Source: Opitutales bacterium (lineage in GTDB: Bacteria > Verrucomicrobiota > Verrucomicrobiia > Opitutales > UBA2995). Taken from it: DNA of 39,047 bases. The notes under the pieces were generated by a model. That model was not told the DNA's origin and did no database searches. It saw nothing but the letters and a program-made list of their open reading frames with translations. A program made the translations under genes and the position numbers. Each line of letters opens with the position of its first letter. Position 1 is the first letter of the stretch. Of the stretch, positions 13,863 through 34,574 are shown piece after piece. The DNA lies in contig JAJDZZ010000061.1 in assembly GCA_022824405.1 (NCBI GenBank), positions 1 to 39,047 on the forward strand, written 5' to 3'.

Positions 13863-15287
13863 TCAAATAACGAGTTCTTCGATTACGGAGCCACCGGTCT
13901 GGGATAACTGCTTATGGCGTCCGCCGTGAAAATAAGTCAGTTTGTTATCGTCCAACCCGAGCATATGCAAAATAGAGACATGCACGTCCTTCACAGGATG
14001 AACAACCTCGACCGCATTTTCCCCGATCTCATCCGTGGCCCCGACGTAGCGGCCTCCTGCAATTCCGCCGCCGGCGAAAAGCATTTGCATGGCTTTGGCA
14101 TTATGGTCACGCCCGTAATTACCGGCCTTTGCGGCTTTTACCGGATTATCGGGTGAACGACCGAACTCACCGCTGCACACTACAAGAGTCGAGTCAAGCA
14201 AGCCTCGTTGCTTCAAATCTTCAATCAGTGCAGTCATGGGTTTATCGACACTGCGAATTCGTTCCCGGTGTGCTGTTTCAATTAACATGTGGCTGTCCCA
14301 TCCTGAAGAGAATACCTGCACAAAGCGAACTCCACGTTCGACCAATCGGCGAGCCAAAAGGCATTTCCGGCCGAATTCGTCCGTGATGGGATCGCCAATA
14401 CCATATGCTTCCAACGTCCTGGGATTCTCCTGCGAAATATCGAGCAACCCCGGCACCTGGGCCTGCATTCGAAAGGCCAGTTCATAGCTGTCCAGACGAG
14501 CCTGCAGTTCCTCCGCTACCGGGTGATCGAGTAAATGCTCCCGATTCATTTCCGCGAGTAAATCGAGACTGTCGCGCTGCATTCTCTCGGTTACCGACTT
14601 TGGGGGATACAGGTCCAAAATAGGCGATCCGACTGGGCGCAAAGGAGTTCCCTGGTGAGCTGGGGGGAGGAACCCATTGGACCAATTGGGCGTTCCTCCC
14701 TGCGGAAAACTTTCTTCCGGCAGCACGACGAAACTCGGCAAGTCTTCATTTTCCGTTCCCAATCCGTAACTCACCCACGAACCAATGCCAGGATCGCCGG
14801 CAAACCGGTTCCCGGTATTCATTTGAAAGTTAGCAGTTGGATGGTCGACGGAGTCCACCTGACAGCCCCGGTAAATGCAAAGATCGTCCGCCACGCGTTC
14901 CAGATTTTCAAAATGCTCGCACATCCAAATTCCACTTTCACCTGTCTGGCGAAATTTGAAGGGGCTCCTCACGAGGGAACGGGCCCCGATGTCCATCACT
15001 GCCACAAACTTTCCCTCTTTCCGGAATTCCGTCAGATGCCTTTTATCCAACTCCGGTTTGGGATCGAAGGTGTCGATATGACTGGGAGCCCCTTCCATGT
15101 AGAGAAATATGCAGTTTTTCGCCTTGGCTGGAAAATGAGGAGCTTTCGCTGAAAGTGGGTTGAGGTTGGCTGAACTGATAGATTCGAGTTGGAGCAACGA
15201 TTGAAAGGCGGCTGAACCGAGGATGGTACCCATTCCTTTCATAAAGCCCCGGCGGGAACAGAGATCAAACGGTTGAGATTGTTTCAT
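13863..15287 (-). CDS. DUF1501 protein, Tat-exported
   Basis: 474 residues. The twin-arginine signal CSRRGFMKGMGTILGSAAF is followed by the DUF1501 fold (alkaline-phosphatase/sulfatase superfamily). Typical family blocks are KNCIFLYMEGAPSHIDTFDPKPELD near the start (metal-site Asp), GSWVSYGLG, the C-terminal SGEFGRSP and GNYGRDHNAKAM, and HVSILHMLGLD. The family is abundant in Planctomycetes and Verrucomicrobia and nearly always sits next to a PSCyt/DUF1549/DUF1553 gene, as here. Its activity is not established. The ATG overlaps the stop of the upstream gene by one base (TAATG at 15289-15285), which indicates translational coupling. Confidence 0.96.
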   Translation of the reverse strand: MKQSQPFDLCSRRGFMKGMGTILGSAAFQSLLQLESISSANLNPLSAKAPHFPAKAKNCIFLYMEGAPSHIDTFDPKPELDKRHLTEFRKEGKFVAVMDIGARSLVRSPFKFRQTGESGIWMCEHFENLERVADDLCIYRGCQVDSVDHPTANFQMNTGNRFAGDPGIGSWVSYGLGTENEDLPSFVVLPEESFPQGGTPNWSNGFLPPAHQGTPLRPVGSPILDLYPPKSVTERMQRDSLDLLAEMNREHLLDHPVAEELQARLDSYELAFRMQAQVPGLLDISQENPRTLEAYGIGDPITDEFGRKCLLARRLVERGVRFVQVFSSGWDSHMLIETAHRERIRSVDKPMTALIEDLKQRGLLDSTLVVCSGEFGRSPDNPVKAAKAGNYGRDHNAKAMQMLFAGGGIAGGRYVGATDEIGENAVEVVHPVKDVHVSILHMLGLDDNKLTYFHGGRHKQLSQTGGSVIEELVI

Positions 15288-18127
15288 TACTCGACGTATA
15301 GGAATTCATTGGAGTTAAACAGGACCAAACAAAATCCGGCCAGCGCCCGGGTCTCCGGACCTACATCCCAAGGCTTCAGATCCGGGACGAAGGTCCGGTC
15401 GTACACATCCAGGTACTCTGACCAGGAGCTTTTTATGCCGGTTTGTTCGTGGACCATGGAACGTTCCACCGTTGCAGGATAACTTACAGGCATAATTGGA
15501 TTCTTTTTTTGTTCCCCGGTTTGTTTTTTTACAAATTCGAGAGCCCTGTGAATCTCAGCCTCACTCGCAGAGCGGCCATAGACCAATTCGTAGGCATGAG
15601 TTATACGCTTCCGGCCATCTTTTGAATAAGCTTCCAGACGTTTCGCCAGAGCCAGGGAACGATCGTGGGGTTGTTGTCCATTCAACAGAGAAAAAACCTG
15701 CGGAGTCACCGTCGTTGAATCACGGCGTTCGCAGCTAAGGTCAGAACTGGGCTTGTTGAATACTTCAAAAAATGGATTGGACAGGCCGCGCATCCGAAAG
15801 GCGTAAAGTGAACGACGATGACGGTCCTCGGGTTCAGGTGAGGGTTGGTAGGCGGGACCTACACCCACCTGCAAGTAACGGGGCTGCATGGCGGCTTCCA
15901 AATTGATTTCCGGAAAAACGGGAGTTCCGCCCAGCTTTGGATTCAGTTCACCGGAAATTGCCAGCATGGCATCCCGCATTTCTTCCGCATGCAGTCGTCG
16001 AACAGGATATGCGGCCAACAAAATTCCATTGGGGTCGGCGATTGACAAAGAGTCCGGGTGGGGATGTCTGGCCGAGCGTCGATAAACTTTACTGCTGACA
16101 ATAAAGCGATGTAACTTCTTGAGGGACCAACCATTCTCGAGAAACCAGTTTGCAAGGTAATCCAGCAACTCAGGGTGTGAAGGATTTCCGCCTGTGTAAC
16201 CAAAATTGTTCGGCGTACTAACAAGTCCTTTTCCGGCAAAATGCTGCTGCCATATTCGATTCACGATTACACGGGCAGTCAGTGGATTTCGGGGATCTGC
16301 AATCCAACGGGCCAAAGCAATTCTTGGCGACGCACTATCGGCCGTGAATTCGAACCGATGCCCTGCCAGCGTTTCCACACAAGAAATCACCCCAGGGTAA
16401 ACTCTTTCACCAGGTGCATCCAACTCCCCGCCGCTGAGTATATGAATGGGTTCATTGTCGAGTCCCGTAGACTCCGTTGGAATCGGATTGCGTTGGTTGC
16501 TGGAGAAATAATCGTTGGGCGGTCCAGTATAAACCGTAAAGGCAACTGGTTCGAAGCGCTCCAAATATCGAGTAAAGTGGTTCCTCCGATCATTCAGAAC
16601 AGACGCATAGGTAATTTGATCAACCGTAAATCCGTAGTTCTTTGGCGGTCGCTTGTCCTCGGAAAAATCTTTTTCAATTACTTTGGACGGATTCTTATCT
16701 TCACTCCCTTGAAACTCGAATTGGAAATCGTCGTAACCCCGTTCAACCAGCCAATCGACCAGAGCATCGAACCTGACTCGATTCAGTTTGTCCATTTCAG
16801 TCTTTACCCTGTTCAGCTCGCGCTCAATTCGTTCTCGCTCGGCAGCGCCGTCCGGAATTACTTCCCCCGGTAAAAAAGGAGCGGCGACCTCTGCCTGATT
16901 CATTTCCTCGAATACAGCCATAAAGGAATAATAATCCCTTGTCGGGACAGGATCGAATTTGTGGTCATGACACTTGGCACACCGCAAGGGTTGGGCCAAA
17001 AATGTTTCACCCACGTGGTTTACAACGTCGTCGAGGAACTGCTGCCGAACCAGCGCCGCCACCGTCATATTGGTCTTTTCCCACGGACCCATGCGAAGAA
17101 ATCCCACCGCAATTGCTCCTTCAGCATCGTCCGGTTTCAATTCATCGCCGGCAATCTGCTCCAGGATAAACCGGTCGTAGGGCTTATCCGAATTAAAACT
17201 TCGCACTACGTAATCCCTGTAGCGCCAAACACCTGAACGCTCGAAGTCATTCGAACCTCCACTCGTGTCCGCGTAGCGTGTCACATCCAACCAATATTGC
17301 GCTTGTCGCTCACCATAGTGAGGACTCGCCAGCAAACGATCGACCAAATTTGCATATGCCGATTCGGAGTCCCGATCCCACTCGCGCATGAATTGCTCAA
17401 TCTCCTCCGGTGAGGGAGGTATACCAATCAAATCAAAAGTCACGCGACGGATCAAAATCCCAGGGTCTGCCTGGGGAGCCGAATCAACCCCCTTGGATTG
17501 AAGTTCTGCATCAATAAAATAGTCAACTGGATGCCCTGAAAAAGAAGGGGTTGTTGTATTGATGGCCTTATAAGCCCATAGATTTTCCGGCTTATACCGG
17601 CGAAGATTCCATACATCGGACAGCCCTCCGGATGTTTTCACAATGAGTCCGTCATCCGTGACCAAGCGATCGGCTTCCGCGGATTTTATTGCCATTTGCG
17701 TTTCCTCATCCGGCCAAGGAGCTCCGACATCGATCCAATCGCGCAAGGTCATGATTTCCTCCTGTGTCAGACGATCGTTCTCCTTGGGCGGCATTTCATA
17801 ATCGGGATCCTTCCATTGAACTGCCGTCATCATGAAACTGGCCTCCGCATCCCCGGGGACCAACACATCATCGAAACCGTCCCCACCCAGAAGCATGTCC
17901 TCCAAAGTGTGCAGGATCAAACCGCCTTCGATTTCCTCGGGATCGTCCCCGTGACAGGGGAAACATTTTTCCGACAAAATCGGTTTTACCTTAAGTGTAA
18001 AAAGCCGGTCGTGCGCGGATTCTGCCATGAGCCGATTGCTCCCGGCGGCCAGAGCAAACGAACAAAGGATCAAGCAGGCCAAGCAAGACGCTCCGAATGG
18101 CGAACTTATGTACTTTTGAGCGCTCAT
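15287..18127 (-). CDS. Planctomycete-type cytochrome PSCyt1-DUF1549-DUF1553 protein
   Basis: 946 residues. Signal peptide (CLACLILCSFALAAG), then a heme-binding PSCyt1 domain with CFPCH (Cys55, Cys58, His59) that also keeps the EMPPKENDRLTQEE stretch. DUF1549 (about 200-410) contains a second heme-type motif, CAKCHDHKFDPVPTRDYY, and the C-terminal DUF1553 (about 600-900) has ARVIVNRIWQQHFGKGL-like and SLLNGQ segments. The protein is exported and presumably redox-active; its substrate is unknown. The ATG at 18127 is chosen; a TTG four codons earlier at 18139 has a weak GGAT upstream. It forms a coupled pair with the DUF1501 gene. An inverted repeat at 18216-18233 lies about 90 bp upstream. Confidence 0.93.
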   Translation of the reverse strand: MSAQKYISSPFGASCLACLILCSFALAAGSNRLMAESAHDRLFTLKVKPILSEKCFPCHGDDPEEIEGGLILHTLEDMLLGGDGFDDVLVPGDAEASFMMTAVQWKDPDYEMPPKENDRLTQEEIMTLRDWIDVGAPWPDEETQMAIKSAEADRLVTDDGLIVKTSGGLSDVWNLRRYKPENLWAYKAINTTTPSFSGHPVDYFIDAELQSKGVDSAPQADPGILIRRVTFDLIGIPPSPEEIEQFMREWDRDSESAYANLVDRLLASPHYGERQAQYWLDVTRYADTSGGSNDFERSGVWRYRDYVVRSFNSDKPYDRFILEQIAGDELKPDDAEGAIAVGFLRMGPWEKTNMTVAALVRQQFLDDVVNHVGETFLAQPLRCAKCHDHKFDPVPTRDYYSFMAVFEEMNQAEVAAPFLPGEVIPDGAAERERIERELNRVKTEMDKLNRVRFDALVDWLVERGYDDFQFEFQGSEDKNPSKVIEKDFSEDKRPPKNYGFTVDQITYASVLNDRRNHFTRYLERFEPVAFTVYTGPPNDYFSSNQRNPIPTESTGLDNEPIHILSGGELDAPGERVYPGVISCVETLAGHRFEFTADSASPRIALARWIADPRNPLTARVIVNRIWQQHFAGKGLVSTPNNFGYTGGNPSHPELLDYLANWFLENGWSLKKLHRFIVSSKVYRRSARHPHPDSLSIADPNGILLAAYPVRRLHAEEMRDAMLAISGELNPKLGGTPVFPEINLEAAMQPRYLQVGVGPAYQPSPEPEDRHRRSLYAFRMRGLSNPFFEVFNKPSSDLSCERRDSTTVTPQVFSLLNGQQPHDRSLALAKRLEAYSKDGRKRITHAYELVYGRSASEAEIHRALEFVKKQTGEQKKNPIMPVSYPATVERSMVHEQTGIKSSWSEYLDVYDRTFVPDLKPWDVGPETRALAGFCLVLFNSNEFLYVE

Positions 18128-18215
18128 TGGGGAACCCAATTCTTATCCGAACGTCACTGGGATCATGGCTGTTAATTTGTCGAAAATCGTCTTTTTTGCC
18201 CACTTAGTCCTATTT

Positions 18216-31324: not shown

Positions 31325-32533
31325 TCAGGTCAGGTCAATTTCCCTGATCCACTGCTGGTTGGCTTCCCAATAGGTCTTCTTCAATGCGATCTCATCGTCT
31401 TCGGAGGATGGCTGGATGCGGCCGCTGGCATCGATGGCGCGAGAAACGACGGAGCGCCTGCCGGGCTTTTGCAAACCGAGATCGATGGAAAAAAACACCC
31501 AGCAGAATTTATGGCGCGGTTCCTCGTCTAACACGGCGTCCTGCCACTCGCCATCATCGACTTTTACCTGGACCTTGCTGATGGGGGTGCCGTCTCCCCA
31601 AGCGGCGCCATAGGCCTTGAGCGGAATTTTGCCATCCTGGGCCGGACGCCGGGTCACCCGAGCTACAATTGACTTCAATCGCATGCGGCCAACGGAATGC
31701 TCCACATTGACAATTTCGTCCCCCCAGCGTTCGCCCCGCACCGTCACGTAATCGCGTCCCATGTAACGTCCCATGTAGCGTTGGTCCCGCAACTCGATGC
31801 GGGTGAGCCACTTCACGTTGGCAACGCCATACCAGCCCGGAACGATCAGGCGCAAGGGAGCCCCATGCCTTCGTTCGAAAGGTTCCCCATTGCGTTCATA
31901 AGCCAATAAACAGTTTTCATTCATGGCATCGTCCAAAGACAGGCTGCGTCCAAAGGGGACCTTTACTTCCAACTCGCGAGTCGTGCCGGGCCGCAAGGTC
32001 TCCACCTTGGTGTCCTCTCCATAGAAGACCACTTCGAAGGCCCGCGGATCGACACCGACTTGGTCCAGCAATGGTTTCAAGGGAGTGCCGGTCCACTTGC
32101 TATTGTAAACGCCGTTCATGAACCCTTTGCTGCTCCCGTTGCCCGAGCATTCCAAGGTCATGAACTGGTCTTTTTTGGGCAAACGGCGGATTTCCTCCAT
32201 GGTCAAAGCCATGGGTTTTTCGACCAAGCCGTCTATCTCCAGTTTAAAGTTGTCCAGGTCTACCTCGGGCACGCCGTAATGCTGCACGTTAAAGGCCTGG
32301 TTCGAGGGGGTCAGCCAAGAGTCCAGCTTCTCCCAATCCAACCGGTTGGGAGGGGTGACCGGCATGTCGAGAAAGGGGACCAACTCTTCGTCCTTGGCTT
32401 CCGGCGGAAAGGCGAACAGGGAAGGGGAAATTTTCATCGCCCCCAACGCGGCGGCGGCCAGGCCGGTCTTTACGGCAATGCGGCGTGATACGGGTGTATG
32501 GAAGTAAGGAGAATCGGGTTGGAAGTCTTTCAT
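31325..32533 (-). CDS. Tat-exported sulfite-oxidase-family molybdopterin enzyme
   Basis: 402 residues. Twin-arginine signal (VSRRIAVKTGLAAAALGAM), molybdopterin-binding domain with the Mo-ligand cysteine in TLECSGNGSS, RHGAPLRLIVPGWYG and VKWLTRIEL, then an Ig-like dimerisation domain (about 290-390). The family oxidises sulfite to sulfate or reduces sulfoxides, with electrons passing to a cytochrome; no partner cytochrome is adjacent. It lies directly next to the repeat-flanked four-helix-bundle element, whose left end begins 14 bp upstream of its ATG (32533). No Shine-Dalgarno is visible, so its original promoter or leader may have been displaced. Sulfatases give sulfate, not sulfite, so the sulfite source would be elsewhere (perhaps a sulfonate dioxygenase). 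Confidence 0.92.
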   Translation of the reverse strand: MKDFQPDSPYFHTPVSRRIAVKTGLAAAALGAMKISPSLFAFPPEAKDEELVPFLDMPVTPPNRLDWEKLDSWLTPSNQAFNVQHYGVPEVDLDNFKLEIDGLVEKPMALTMEEIRRLPKKDQFMTLECSGNGSSKGFMNGVYNSKWTGTPLKPLLDQVGVDPRAFEVVFYGEDTKVETLRPGTTRELEVKVPFGRSLSLDDAMNENCLLAYERNGEPFERRHGAPLRLIVPGWYGVANVKWLTRIELRDQRYMGRYMGRDYVTVRGERWGDEIVNVEHSVGRMRLKSIVARVTRRPAQDGKIPLKAYGAAWGDGTPISKVQVKVDDGEWQDAVLDEEPRHKFCWVFFSIDLGLQKPGRRSVVSRAIDASGRIQPSSEDDEIALKKTYWEANQQWIREIDLT

Positions 32534-32546
32534 GGGCGGGGACTAT

Positions 32547-32613
32547 AAAGGCTAAAGGCTGAAGGCTGAAGGCTAAATACTAAAGGAAGAAGGAAGAAGG
32601 AAGAAGGAAGAAG
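32547..32613 (+). repeat. Left heptad-repeat tract (AAGGCTR)n-(AAGGAAG)n
   Basis: From 32548, the sequence runs in an unbroken 7-base phase: AAGGCTA, AAGGCTG, AAGGCTG, AAGGCTA, a degenerate AATACTA, then four AAGGAAG units and a partial AAG. The first 31 bases (32547-32577) match 33017-33047 in inverted orientation at 30 of 31 positions. Confidence 0.9.
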
Positions 32614-32660
32614 TATTGTTGAATATAGGGTTAACTTAAATGAAAATGTTGTCATCTCCT

Positions 32661-33001
32661 TCAGACTCTATTTCGCTTAGCCTTAATTAAAGAAGAAATA
32701 AAAATTGCTGCTAGTTCGGAGGATTCATTCATCAGCCCTTGTAATTTTTAACTGGTATAATTTTCGCTTCGATAAGCAACTCAAGCCAGTAAATTGTCTC
32801 CTCCAATTCCTGCTGACCACCGCCGATCTTACTTATGAATTCGGCTGTGGAACGAGCACGGGTAGCTTCTCGATAATGAGCTCCAACAGATGTTCCTGAC
32901 TTGAGTATTTGCTTCCCAATCACCTGAGCCACAATTGAACTAGGCAGATGCGTATAAAGTCGGATTATCCGCAATGAAAAATCCTTTGTGCGCTCCCTCA
33001 A
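32661..33001 (-). pseudogene. 23S rRNA-intervening-sequence-type four-helix-bundle protein, frameshifted
   Basis: The first 89 codons read LRERTKDFSLRIIRLYTHLP, SGTSVGAHYREATRARS and ELEETIYWLELLIEAKIIPV, then stop at 32734-32732. The missing C-terminal helix is found in the next frame (LMNESSELAAIFISSL, then IKAKRNRV, stop 32663-32661). Adding one G in the GGG run (CCC at 32736-32738 on the plus strand) would rejoin both parts into a normal-length product of about 113 residues. The 5' end is also odd: no ATG exists, the frame is closed upstream at 33034, and only TTG (33001) or CTG could start it; relatives usually begin a few residues earlier, where ATA-GTC-GAT stands here. It is either a decayed gene or a sequencing error plus a non-ATG start. 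Function of the family is unknown; the fold resembles the Avd proteins of diversity-generating retroelements. Confidence 0.85.
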
Positions 33002-33013
33002 ATCGACTATTTC

Positions 33014-33090
33014 GCCTTTAGCCTTCAGCCTTCAGCCTTCAGCCTTTAAAACTTCTTCCTTTTTTTTCCTTCATCCTTCAGCCTTTTCTT
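33014..33090 (-). repeat. Right heptad-repeat tract
   Basis: Read on the minus strand: AAGGCTG, AAGGATG, AAGGAAA, an A-rich GGAAGAAG stretch, then AAGGCTG three times and AAGGCTA. The inner part (33017-33047) is the inverted partner of 32547-32577. The outer part lies inside the sulfatase gene and encodes its last residues. Confidence 0.85.
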
Positions 33091-34458
33091 GGCGGGCGGT
33101 TGCCAGGGAACCCGTCCGCGTTCCTGGAAGTGTTGGGACAGACGAGCGCGAAGTTGCGAAAATTGGGGAACCTGGTTCAGCTCGTTGCCGCTTTTGCCTT
33201 CCAGGAGATTGTTTTTTTCGTAGGGATCCTCCGCGATATTATAGAGTTCGTAGGGGGAGAAGGGATAGTTTTGCAACAGCTTGTAGTCACCGATCCTGAC
33301 CGCCTCTATGGTTTTTCCATTGTAGGCCAGTCCCCCTTCGCGCCGCGAAAAGATCATGGCCCGCTTCGAAACATCAACCGCATTGCCATGGAGAACCGGG
33401 GCAAAACTGACTCCGTCGATAGGGCCCTCCCATTCAACACCGCAAATTTCCAGGATGGTGGGAAAAATATCCATGGTCATGCCGGTGTGGCCGGTCTTGG
33501 ACCCGGCGGGAATCCGGTCTTTCCACACAACGACGGTGGGCACCAGAAGGCCGCCCTCGTAGACCGTTCCCTTACCCTCCCGCAAGGGACCGTTGTCCGA
33601 TCCAAACCGGAGCGATCCCCCATTGTCGCTGCTGAAGACGATCACCGTATTGTCGTAAATTCCATTGTCCTTGAGGGACTGAACCACCTCTCCGATTCCC
33701 GCATCCATGTGCTCCACCAAAGCCACCAGCTTGGCCCGCTTTTCCGCGATTCCCGGTTCCCGCTTCATCACGCGGTCGACCCACTCCTGGGGCGGTTGGA
33801 TGGGACTGTGAGGAGCATTATAGGCCAGGTAGAGGAAAAAGGGTTCCGCCATTTTGGAGGCTTGGCCGATATAATCTACGGCCCATTGGGAAAAGAGGTC
33901 GGTAGCATGGCCCTCGGGATCGATGACCGATCGATTCTCCCGCATGAAATTGTGCCCGTGTCGGCGGTGATGATAGTAATCGTCCATCATGTCGCCCAAA
34001 AATCCTTTGAAGTATTTGAAGCCGCGCTGGTTGGGGATGTTGGGCTCTTCCAGACCCAGGTGCCATTTTCCCACAAGAGCCGTCTCGTAGCCGCTTTTTC
34101 CGAGCACCGTTGCGATCGAAGTGGAATTGGGGTTCCAGTAGCCCCAGGTGTTGTCCTCCAAATCCCGAATGACTCCCTGGACTCCTACCAGATCCTGCTG
34201 TCGACCGGTCAACAGGGCGGCGCGGGAAGGTGAACAGACCGGGCAATTGGCATAGAAATTGTCAAATCGCATCCCCTCCCCCGCCAATGCGTCCAGGGCC
34301 GGGGTCTCAATATCGTCCAAACCGTTGTAAGACACGTCGTAATAACCTTGATCATCGGTGAAGATGAGCAGGATGTTGGGTCGATCGGAAGCGCTCAAAC
34401 CCGCCGGGATGATGACACCCCAGACCGACCATTGGAATATCATTCGGATCAAATTCAT
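33046..34458 (-). CDS. Exported formylglycine-type sulfatase with repeat-encoded tail
   Basis: 470 residues. Signal peptide MNLIRMIFQWSVWGVIIPAG, the metal pair Asp35-Asp36 (FTDDQGYYD), and CSPSR with Cys75 as the formylglycine precursor (AALLTGR follows), then VGKWHLG and SSDNGG. It resembles arylsulfatase A-like enzymes. The ATG at 34458 is chosen; a TTG two codons upstream is an alternative. The last 14 residues, KKRLKDEGKKRKKF, are highly basic and come from the AAGGNNN heptad tract that bounds the adjacent four-helix-bundle unit, and the TAA at 33048-33046 lies in the inverted repeat. The native 3' end may have been replaced by the repeat. It is divergent from the next sulfatase across 116 bp. 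Confidence 0.95.
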   Translation of the reverse strand: MNLIRMIFQWSVWGVIIPAGLSASDRPNILLIFTDDQGYYDVSYNGLDDIETPALDALAGEGMRFDNFYANCPVCSPSRAALLTGRQQDLVGVQGVIRDLEDNTWGYWNPNSTSIATVLGKSGYETALVGKWHLGLEEPNIPNQRGFKYFKGFLGDMMDDYYHHRRHGHNFMRENRSVIDPEGHATDLFSQWAVDYIGQASKMAEPFFLYLAYNAPHSPIQPPQEWVDRVMKREPGIAEKRAKLVALVEHMDAGIGEVVQSLKDNGIYDNTVIVFSSDNGGSLRFGSDNGPLREGKGTVYEGGLLVPTVVVWKDRIPAGSKTGHTGMTMDIFPTILEICGVEWEGPIDGVSFAPVLHGNAVDVSKRAMIFSRREGGLAYNGKTIEAVRIGDYKLLQNYPFSPYELYNIAEDPYEKNNLLEGKSGNELNQVPQFSQLRARLSQHFQERGRVPWQPPAKKRLKDEGKKRKKF

Positions 34459-34574
34459 AACCAAAGGATATTGGCAGGGATGGGATGGAGGTCAATCTCC
34501 ACCCCGGCGCCAGGACGCATTTGACGAAAGAATTGGGTTTTCTCCCGGCCGGTTAATCCGGTAGCTTTTCCATC

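Follow-up and report, generated by a model that had tools for sequence, protein, structure and literature searches.

The window analysed here, a stretch of 39,047 nucleotides of Opitutales DNA, lies on contig C89 of a draft genome of 3.39 Mb (G000), whose sister species is G001. Between a sulfatase gene and a sulfite-oxidase-like gene it carries the remains of an IVP gene, of the type known from intervening sequences (IVS) of 23S rRNA, enclosed by arrays of short tandem repeats. The features of the locus are as follows.

31325-32533, minus strand: downstream host gene, molybdopterin sulfite-oxidase-like (PF00174, PF03404), on the same strand as IVP
32540-33094, minus strand: inserted block of 555 bases, absent from G001 (blastn of the window against L065)
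32546-32577, plus strand: AAGGCTR heptad array distal to the IVP start, one inverted-repeat arm (31/32 with 33017-33048)
32583-32613, plus strand: AAGGAAG heptads sharing the phase of the first array (4.4 copies, 100% matches)
32661-32747, minus strand: IVP C-terminal helix, in a frame that differs from the rest, KLQGLMNESSELAAIFISSLIKAKRNRV followed by a stop (tblastn with the protein of L005 aligns first in frame 3 and next in frame 2, E 4.5e-10)
32732-33001, minus strand: remaining IVP open frame, 89 aa, TTG start (PF05635 match at 32738-32995)
32745-32751, minus strand: site of a 1-nt deletion in an A-run of the coding strand (alignment with L005, L060 and L050)
33008-33028, minus strand: former N-terminus within the heptads, (A>C)TGAAGGCTAAAGGCGAAATA, reading (M>L)KAKGEI (ATG in the relatives L050 and L060)
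33017-33048, minus strand: AAGGCTR heptad array at the IVP 5' end, second inverted-repeat arm (31/32 with 32546-32577)
33046-34464, minus strand: upstream host gene, sulfatase (PF00884), on the same strand as IVP
33049-33087, minus strand: outer array AAGGCTG AAGGATG AAGGAAA..AAGGAAG, which also codes the altered sulfatase C-terminus

The two arms agree as inverted copies in 31 of 32 positions and reach 39 nt at 90% once extended; an earlier note on this DNA, which had counted 30 of 31, was right on this point, as it was on the in-phase continuation of the left tract into AAGGAAG units. Its assignment of the gene to the IVS type is likewise borne out by profile scores above the cut-offs for PF05635 (56.8 bits, cut-off 33.8) and TIGR02436 (67.9 bits, cut-off 24), and a relative of the window protein, L005, matches PDB 2RLD at 9e-23. 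The block has rewritten the C-terminus of the sulfatase, which ends in AKKRLKDEGKKRKKF and a stop in the window and in GSNAKR and a stop in the sister species. Across the 3.39-Mb genome G000 the motif AAGGCTRAAGGCTR has 93 matches and the reversed motif 0, and the folded strand of the element is more stable than 100 of 100 shuffles (z -2.9), the folding check that the note had proposed; together, these two results exclude a chance origin of the heptads. The heptad also occurs beyond this site, with dozens of tracts in G000, the majority of them lacking an IVP gene. The Rfam scan of the window and the loci matched the element to no known RNA, and in the window, where Rfam gave zero matches, the neighbours are protein genes and no ribosomal RNA gene lies around it.

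The gene itself appears decayed. In relatives of the same subfamily the start codon sits within the heptads, AAGG-ATG-AAGGCTAAAGGCG reading MKAKG, and in L050 the string AAGG-ATG-AAGGCTAAAGGCGAAAT (with AAGGCA in L060) combines ribosome-binding site, start codon and MKAKGE; the corresponding codon of the window is CTG. Further along, helix 4 is thrown out of frame by a missing base near 32745-32751, and the intact four-helix frame of the relatives is therefore not retained in the window copy. Judged from these changes, the copy is probably dead; an assembly error could account for the frameshift, though not for the lost start codon.

Comparison with the sister species revealed an empty site of the kind that the earlier note had suggested looking for. 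In G001, the two host genes lie next to each other and share 88-89% identity with their window counterparts (89% to 33095, 88% from 32539), and the counterpart of 32540-33094 consists of about 50 unrelated bases with zero heptads and zero IVP, both neighbouring genes being intact. This site could instead reflect a loss in G001. For L006, a second element of G000, the orthologous G001 site is empty as well. Additionally, the window IVP shares 84% identity with the IVP that G001 has at another junction (DUF1553/DUF1501) and 66% with the IVP that its own genome carries there, a pattern expected if elements change place, which differential loss could also explain. Several copies per genome, which the note had named as support for mobility, were found: G000 harbours three octad-armed IVP copies (L001, L002, L006) that are 92-95% identical in unrelated surroundings, with homology stopping at the arrays, an internal deletion in one of them, and an extra truncated copy elsewhere in the genome. 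Internally deleted copies are common, and contig ends in G000, G117 and G229 carry IVP copies, as repeated sequence does. Occupied and empty orthologous sites and dispersed copies, the marks of a transposon or MITE, are thus both present; at the window copy no TIR and no target duplication was recognised, and reading the AAGGCTR loci of G000 revealed no common outer cap. The likely reading of the block is a very small selfish mobile element in decayed form, consisting of inverted short-repeat arrays around one IVP gene.

The layout extends far beyond this genus. With four relatives as queries, 80 IVP loci were collected from Verrucomicrobia, Planctomycetes, Acidobacteria, Chloroflexi, Cyanobacteria, Desulfobacterota, Chlorobi, Nitrospirota, Gemmatimonadota, Bacteroidota and others. 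In phages, relatives were almost absent. Reading of the flanks demonstrated upstream heptads and their reverse complement downstream at nearly all loci, so that the inverted arrays looked for in related genomes occur across phyla, the unit varying from locus to locus (AAGGATG, AATGATG, AACGATG, AGGGATG, AATGCGG). As controls, 311 neighbouring genes were taken from the same contigs as 77 of the IVP loci (at least 10 phyla). Two-sided 7-nt periodicity was present at 64% of the 77 IVP loci and 1.3% of the 311 controls, with other lags at 0-1%. An exact inverted match of at least 15 nt was found at 48% of IVP loci; the rate was 0.6% in control genes and 4.5% when IVP flanks were mispaired (p 6e-35 and 2e-28, indicative only, as the loci share ancestry and the p-values are too small). 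The low rate in mispaired flanks indicates that the arms of one locus resemble each other beyond the family consensus. Duplex energy separated true from mispaired flanks poorly, similar units being present in many elements, and the exact-match statistic separated them well. That an ordinary small gene should have a simple-sequence repeat on each side by chance, which the richness of G000 in such repeats might suggest, is refuted by the control comparison and has next to no probability, the same layout recurring about 50 times as often as among the controls, and in dozens of unrelated genera.

When all subfamilies were included, 137 of 185 loci (74%) showed one period on both sides: 7 nt in 106, 6 nt (or twelve) in 22 and 8 nt in 9. 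The element class is broad, with units of 6, 7 or 8 nt, and unit length goes with the IVP subfamily. The remaining 26% or so fell below the threshold for two-sided arrays; of the two observations that the earlier note had named as speaking against its reading, IVP genes without arrays do exist, at about a quarter of loci, and heptads at the same site without the gene were not found. In the tree built from these 137 proteins, unit length underwent 7 changes, compared with 29 in shuffled data, and 0 of 200 shuffles were as low; 21 of the 22 hexad elements fall in a single clade (SH-aLRT 99). Because unit length tracks the tree while unit sequence drifts freely within clades, we infer that something about the IVP protein fixes the period of the array.

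These results also bear on the relation between gene and array. Short tandem arrays could be primary, spreading by slippage or recombination and receiving IVP genes by homologous exchange, a proposal that draws on the G000 tracts, most of which lack an IVP gene, and on the intergenic regions of the genus, which are mosaics of several repeat types. Elsewhere, however, the only tracts of a genome lie at the gene: all AAGGATG or AATGATG triples of G013 (6.3 Mb), G015 and G019 are located at an IVP gene, and so is the sole AAGGMTR triple of G006. Other genomes have the unit in scattered form, among them G000, with 63 AAGGCTR/AAGGATR triples to 1 in its sister. The arms, moreover, match each other locus by locus, and a unit length that follows the protein tree is not what a passive landing pad would show. 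We regard an origin from the arrays as improbable and retain the mobile element as the preferred reading.

Evidence on termini comes from hexad elements of G117 and G229, which belong to the same phylum as the window. These elements have terminal inverted repeats (TIR) of 18-24 bp, GGGCGCATGGCAGTTCTG(ATGAGG), whose ends number 25 in G117, 20 in G229, one or two in three further genomes and 0 in 236 of 241 genomes. Two complete G117 elements of 413 and 347 bases are flanked by perfect 9-bp duplications, TACGTCGCC and TGCAAGCGC, so that the target duplications (TSD) derive from two complete elements of one draft genome and, like the TIR, from another IVP subfamily than that of the window; in a third complete element (578 bases) the target duplication is absent. 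In both duplication-flanked elements the IVP gene is internally deleted, suggesting that their movement depended on a factor provided in trans. The small mobile element proposed by the earlier note is accordingly supported by the empty site, the several copies and the arrays across phyla, with TIR and TSD contributed by this related hexad family alone. A hammerhead-like CTGATGAG in the hexad terminus was considered and dropped, as the G229 copies read CTGTTGAG. In G229, positions 1500-1566 of L375 form a 66-base minimal hairpin of both hexad-element ends, similar to a REPIN-sized derivative. In G117, a worn TIR at L356 adjoins a gene that by eye resembles a Y1 (REP-associated, RAYT-like) transposase, an assignment that is putative.

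In the surroundings of IVP elements, the upstream neighbour is co-directional with IVP in 78% of cases and the downstream neighbour in 80%, compared with 68% of other adjacent pairs (p 0.003 and 0.0005), so that sense orientation is a preference with exceptions. In five Acidobacteria (L129, L133, L157, L162, L167) the element lies between a tRNA gene and a small SRP RNA gene, the three sharing a strand. Both observations, together with the reported homology of the IVP and Avd folds (PMC10053308), favour an RNA route, the chief alternative for how the element is transferred, in which the hairpin RNA would be reverse-transcribed in trans with IVP acting like the Avd of diversity-generating retroelements. 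A Pfam scan of the main proteins encoded in the window found zero reverse transcriptases, and TIR with 9-bp target duplications, as in the hexad elements, are typical of DNA transposition. The RNA route appears unlikely on balance, while retaining a minor share of the probability.

Recurrent positions were noted as well. In several Verrucomicrobia and Planctomycetes an IVP gene again occupies the DUF1553/DUF1501 junction, with units that differ; at L005, L102, L107 and L111 the arms match each other no worse than those of the other species, and at L118, L174 and L116 the arm-to-arm match is weak. Within the window, a DUF1553-DUF1501 pair at 13863-18139 abuts directly (shared base 15287) and represents an unoccupied version of this junction. 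On cyanobacterial and Chlorohelix plasmids (L182-L186, L190, L191), IVP elements lie within defence operons, in the layouts csx2/IVP/cas1, drmD/IVP/MmeI or PglX(-like), DUF1156/IVP/Swt1 and helicase/IVP/N6-methylase, and the cyanobacterial plasmid units are AATCCCC, TAATTCG and GTCGGAA. IVP genes in cas loci have been noticed earlier, the repeats being unmentioned in the passages found of that paper (PMC3936711). The recurrent junction, where both arms changed together in some cases, and the defence operons are what a domesticated regulator would account for, the IVP and its hairpin tuning expression of the downstream genes and being kept by selection. The broken window copy, the empty sister site between two intact genes and the frequency of internally deleted copies all oppose this reading, to which we assign little probability, and the selfish element is again preferred.

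Among the closest known systems is the IVS of 23S rRNA. In Coxiella burnetii, an IVP gene lies in the loop of a hairpin with a 28-bp stem, and tandem heptamers, GACAGAT, stand right before its start codon (PMC4990558). The window element likewise has stem-capable inverted repeats at its ends around an IVP frame, with arms of 32-39 nt where the Coxiella stem has 28 bp, and both are a few hundred bases long with a gene that is often decaying; the IVS, too, is regarded as selfish (PMC4990558). In contrast to the IVS, the window element lies between protein genes, its arms are themselves a tandem repeat, and it has dispersed copies and solo arrays; for IVS, the repeat was noted in a single case and never as a family rule. 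We read the element as akin to the IVS in kind but sited in operons. A search of the open-access literature gave this one Coxiella IVS as the sole published case in which IVP genes are connected with repeat arrays. The stem of the 23S rRNA IVS is cut and trimmed by RNase III. REP/REPIN sequences with RAYT, and MITEs, are similar in that dispersed intergenic short repeats are apparently tied to one small protein gene and internally deleted derivatives occur, the hexad family here adding TIR and 9-bp duplications; they differ in that the protein here is a four-helix bundle, no known nuclease, and the arms are arrays of 6, 7 or 8 nt. Avd is reported to be a homologous four-helix bundle (PMC10053308), and the systems differ in the reverse transcriptase, for which the Pfam scan of the main proteins in the window gave no hit.

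Heptameric repeats are familiar in their own right. Cyanobacterial STRRs are heptameric tandem repeats. Others are GGGAATC in Xanthomonas and GGGGA(C/T)T in Nostoc (PMC4692102) and TAACTGA in Beggiatoaceae (PMC4679880), and the searched passages of these two papers contain neither a source of the heptamers nor a mention of IVP. All of these, STRRs included, resemble the arrays described here in unit length, intergenic scatter and strain-specific spread, and the IVPs of cyanobacterial plasmids have units of this kind. A search with the Xanthomonas GGGAATC repeats returned three viral contigs only, from which IVP was absent.

A mechanism consistent with these observations can be outlined. The window element would have landed in the sense direction between two co-directional genes. 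In the RNA, as the earlier note had proposed, its arms may form a long stem, here with the IVP frame as its loop by analogy with the 23S rRNA IVS, and the protein may act as a helper. A pentameric IVP might then recognise its own array by period rather than exact sequence: the structure of Xcc0516 is a ring of five four-helix bundles (cited in PMC3936711), and one unit per subunit would offer period-specific recognition. The cut-and-join enzyme would be supplied in trans, because the element encodes none. Gene loss or internal deletion would leave solo arrays, appearing as scattered short tandem repeats. The wider proposal, that these elements form a mobile class of many phyla whose protein reads period and not sequence, that the rRNA IVS is a special case and that heptameric repeats are largely footprints of the class, we hold to be evenly balanced between right and wrong. 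IVP genes are common small bacterial genes, and reports of heptameric tandem repeats go back decades without naming a source; the design described here may tie both together, and unit length, being predicted by the protein subfamily, provides a direct handle on each. The rRNA IVS would become one of the sites at which a general element of transcribed regions lands, and the link may explain the presence of IVP genes inside CRISPR and other defence operons.

Candidate footprints are conspicuous in the window's own genus. TTAGGAA triples number 147 in G001, 48 in G000 and 0 in six further genomes of the family, and a G001 IVP locus, L048, has arms of exactly TTAGGAA. The TTAGGAA tracts (L283, L285, L291, L316-L318, L341) have a short GC hairpin cap, followed by AA and then heptads, and the stem sequence of the caps varies while pairing is kept (GGCGCGCTGGAGCGCGCC, GGCGCCCAAGGGCGCC). 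Perhaps each repeat type in the intergenic mosaics of the genus is the trace of a different IVP subfamily. At L010, L022, L283, L285, L289 and L293, these mosaics are composed of AATTCCT, AAGGCACA, GATCGT, CACAGAG-like and GAATGAG repeats.
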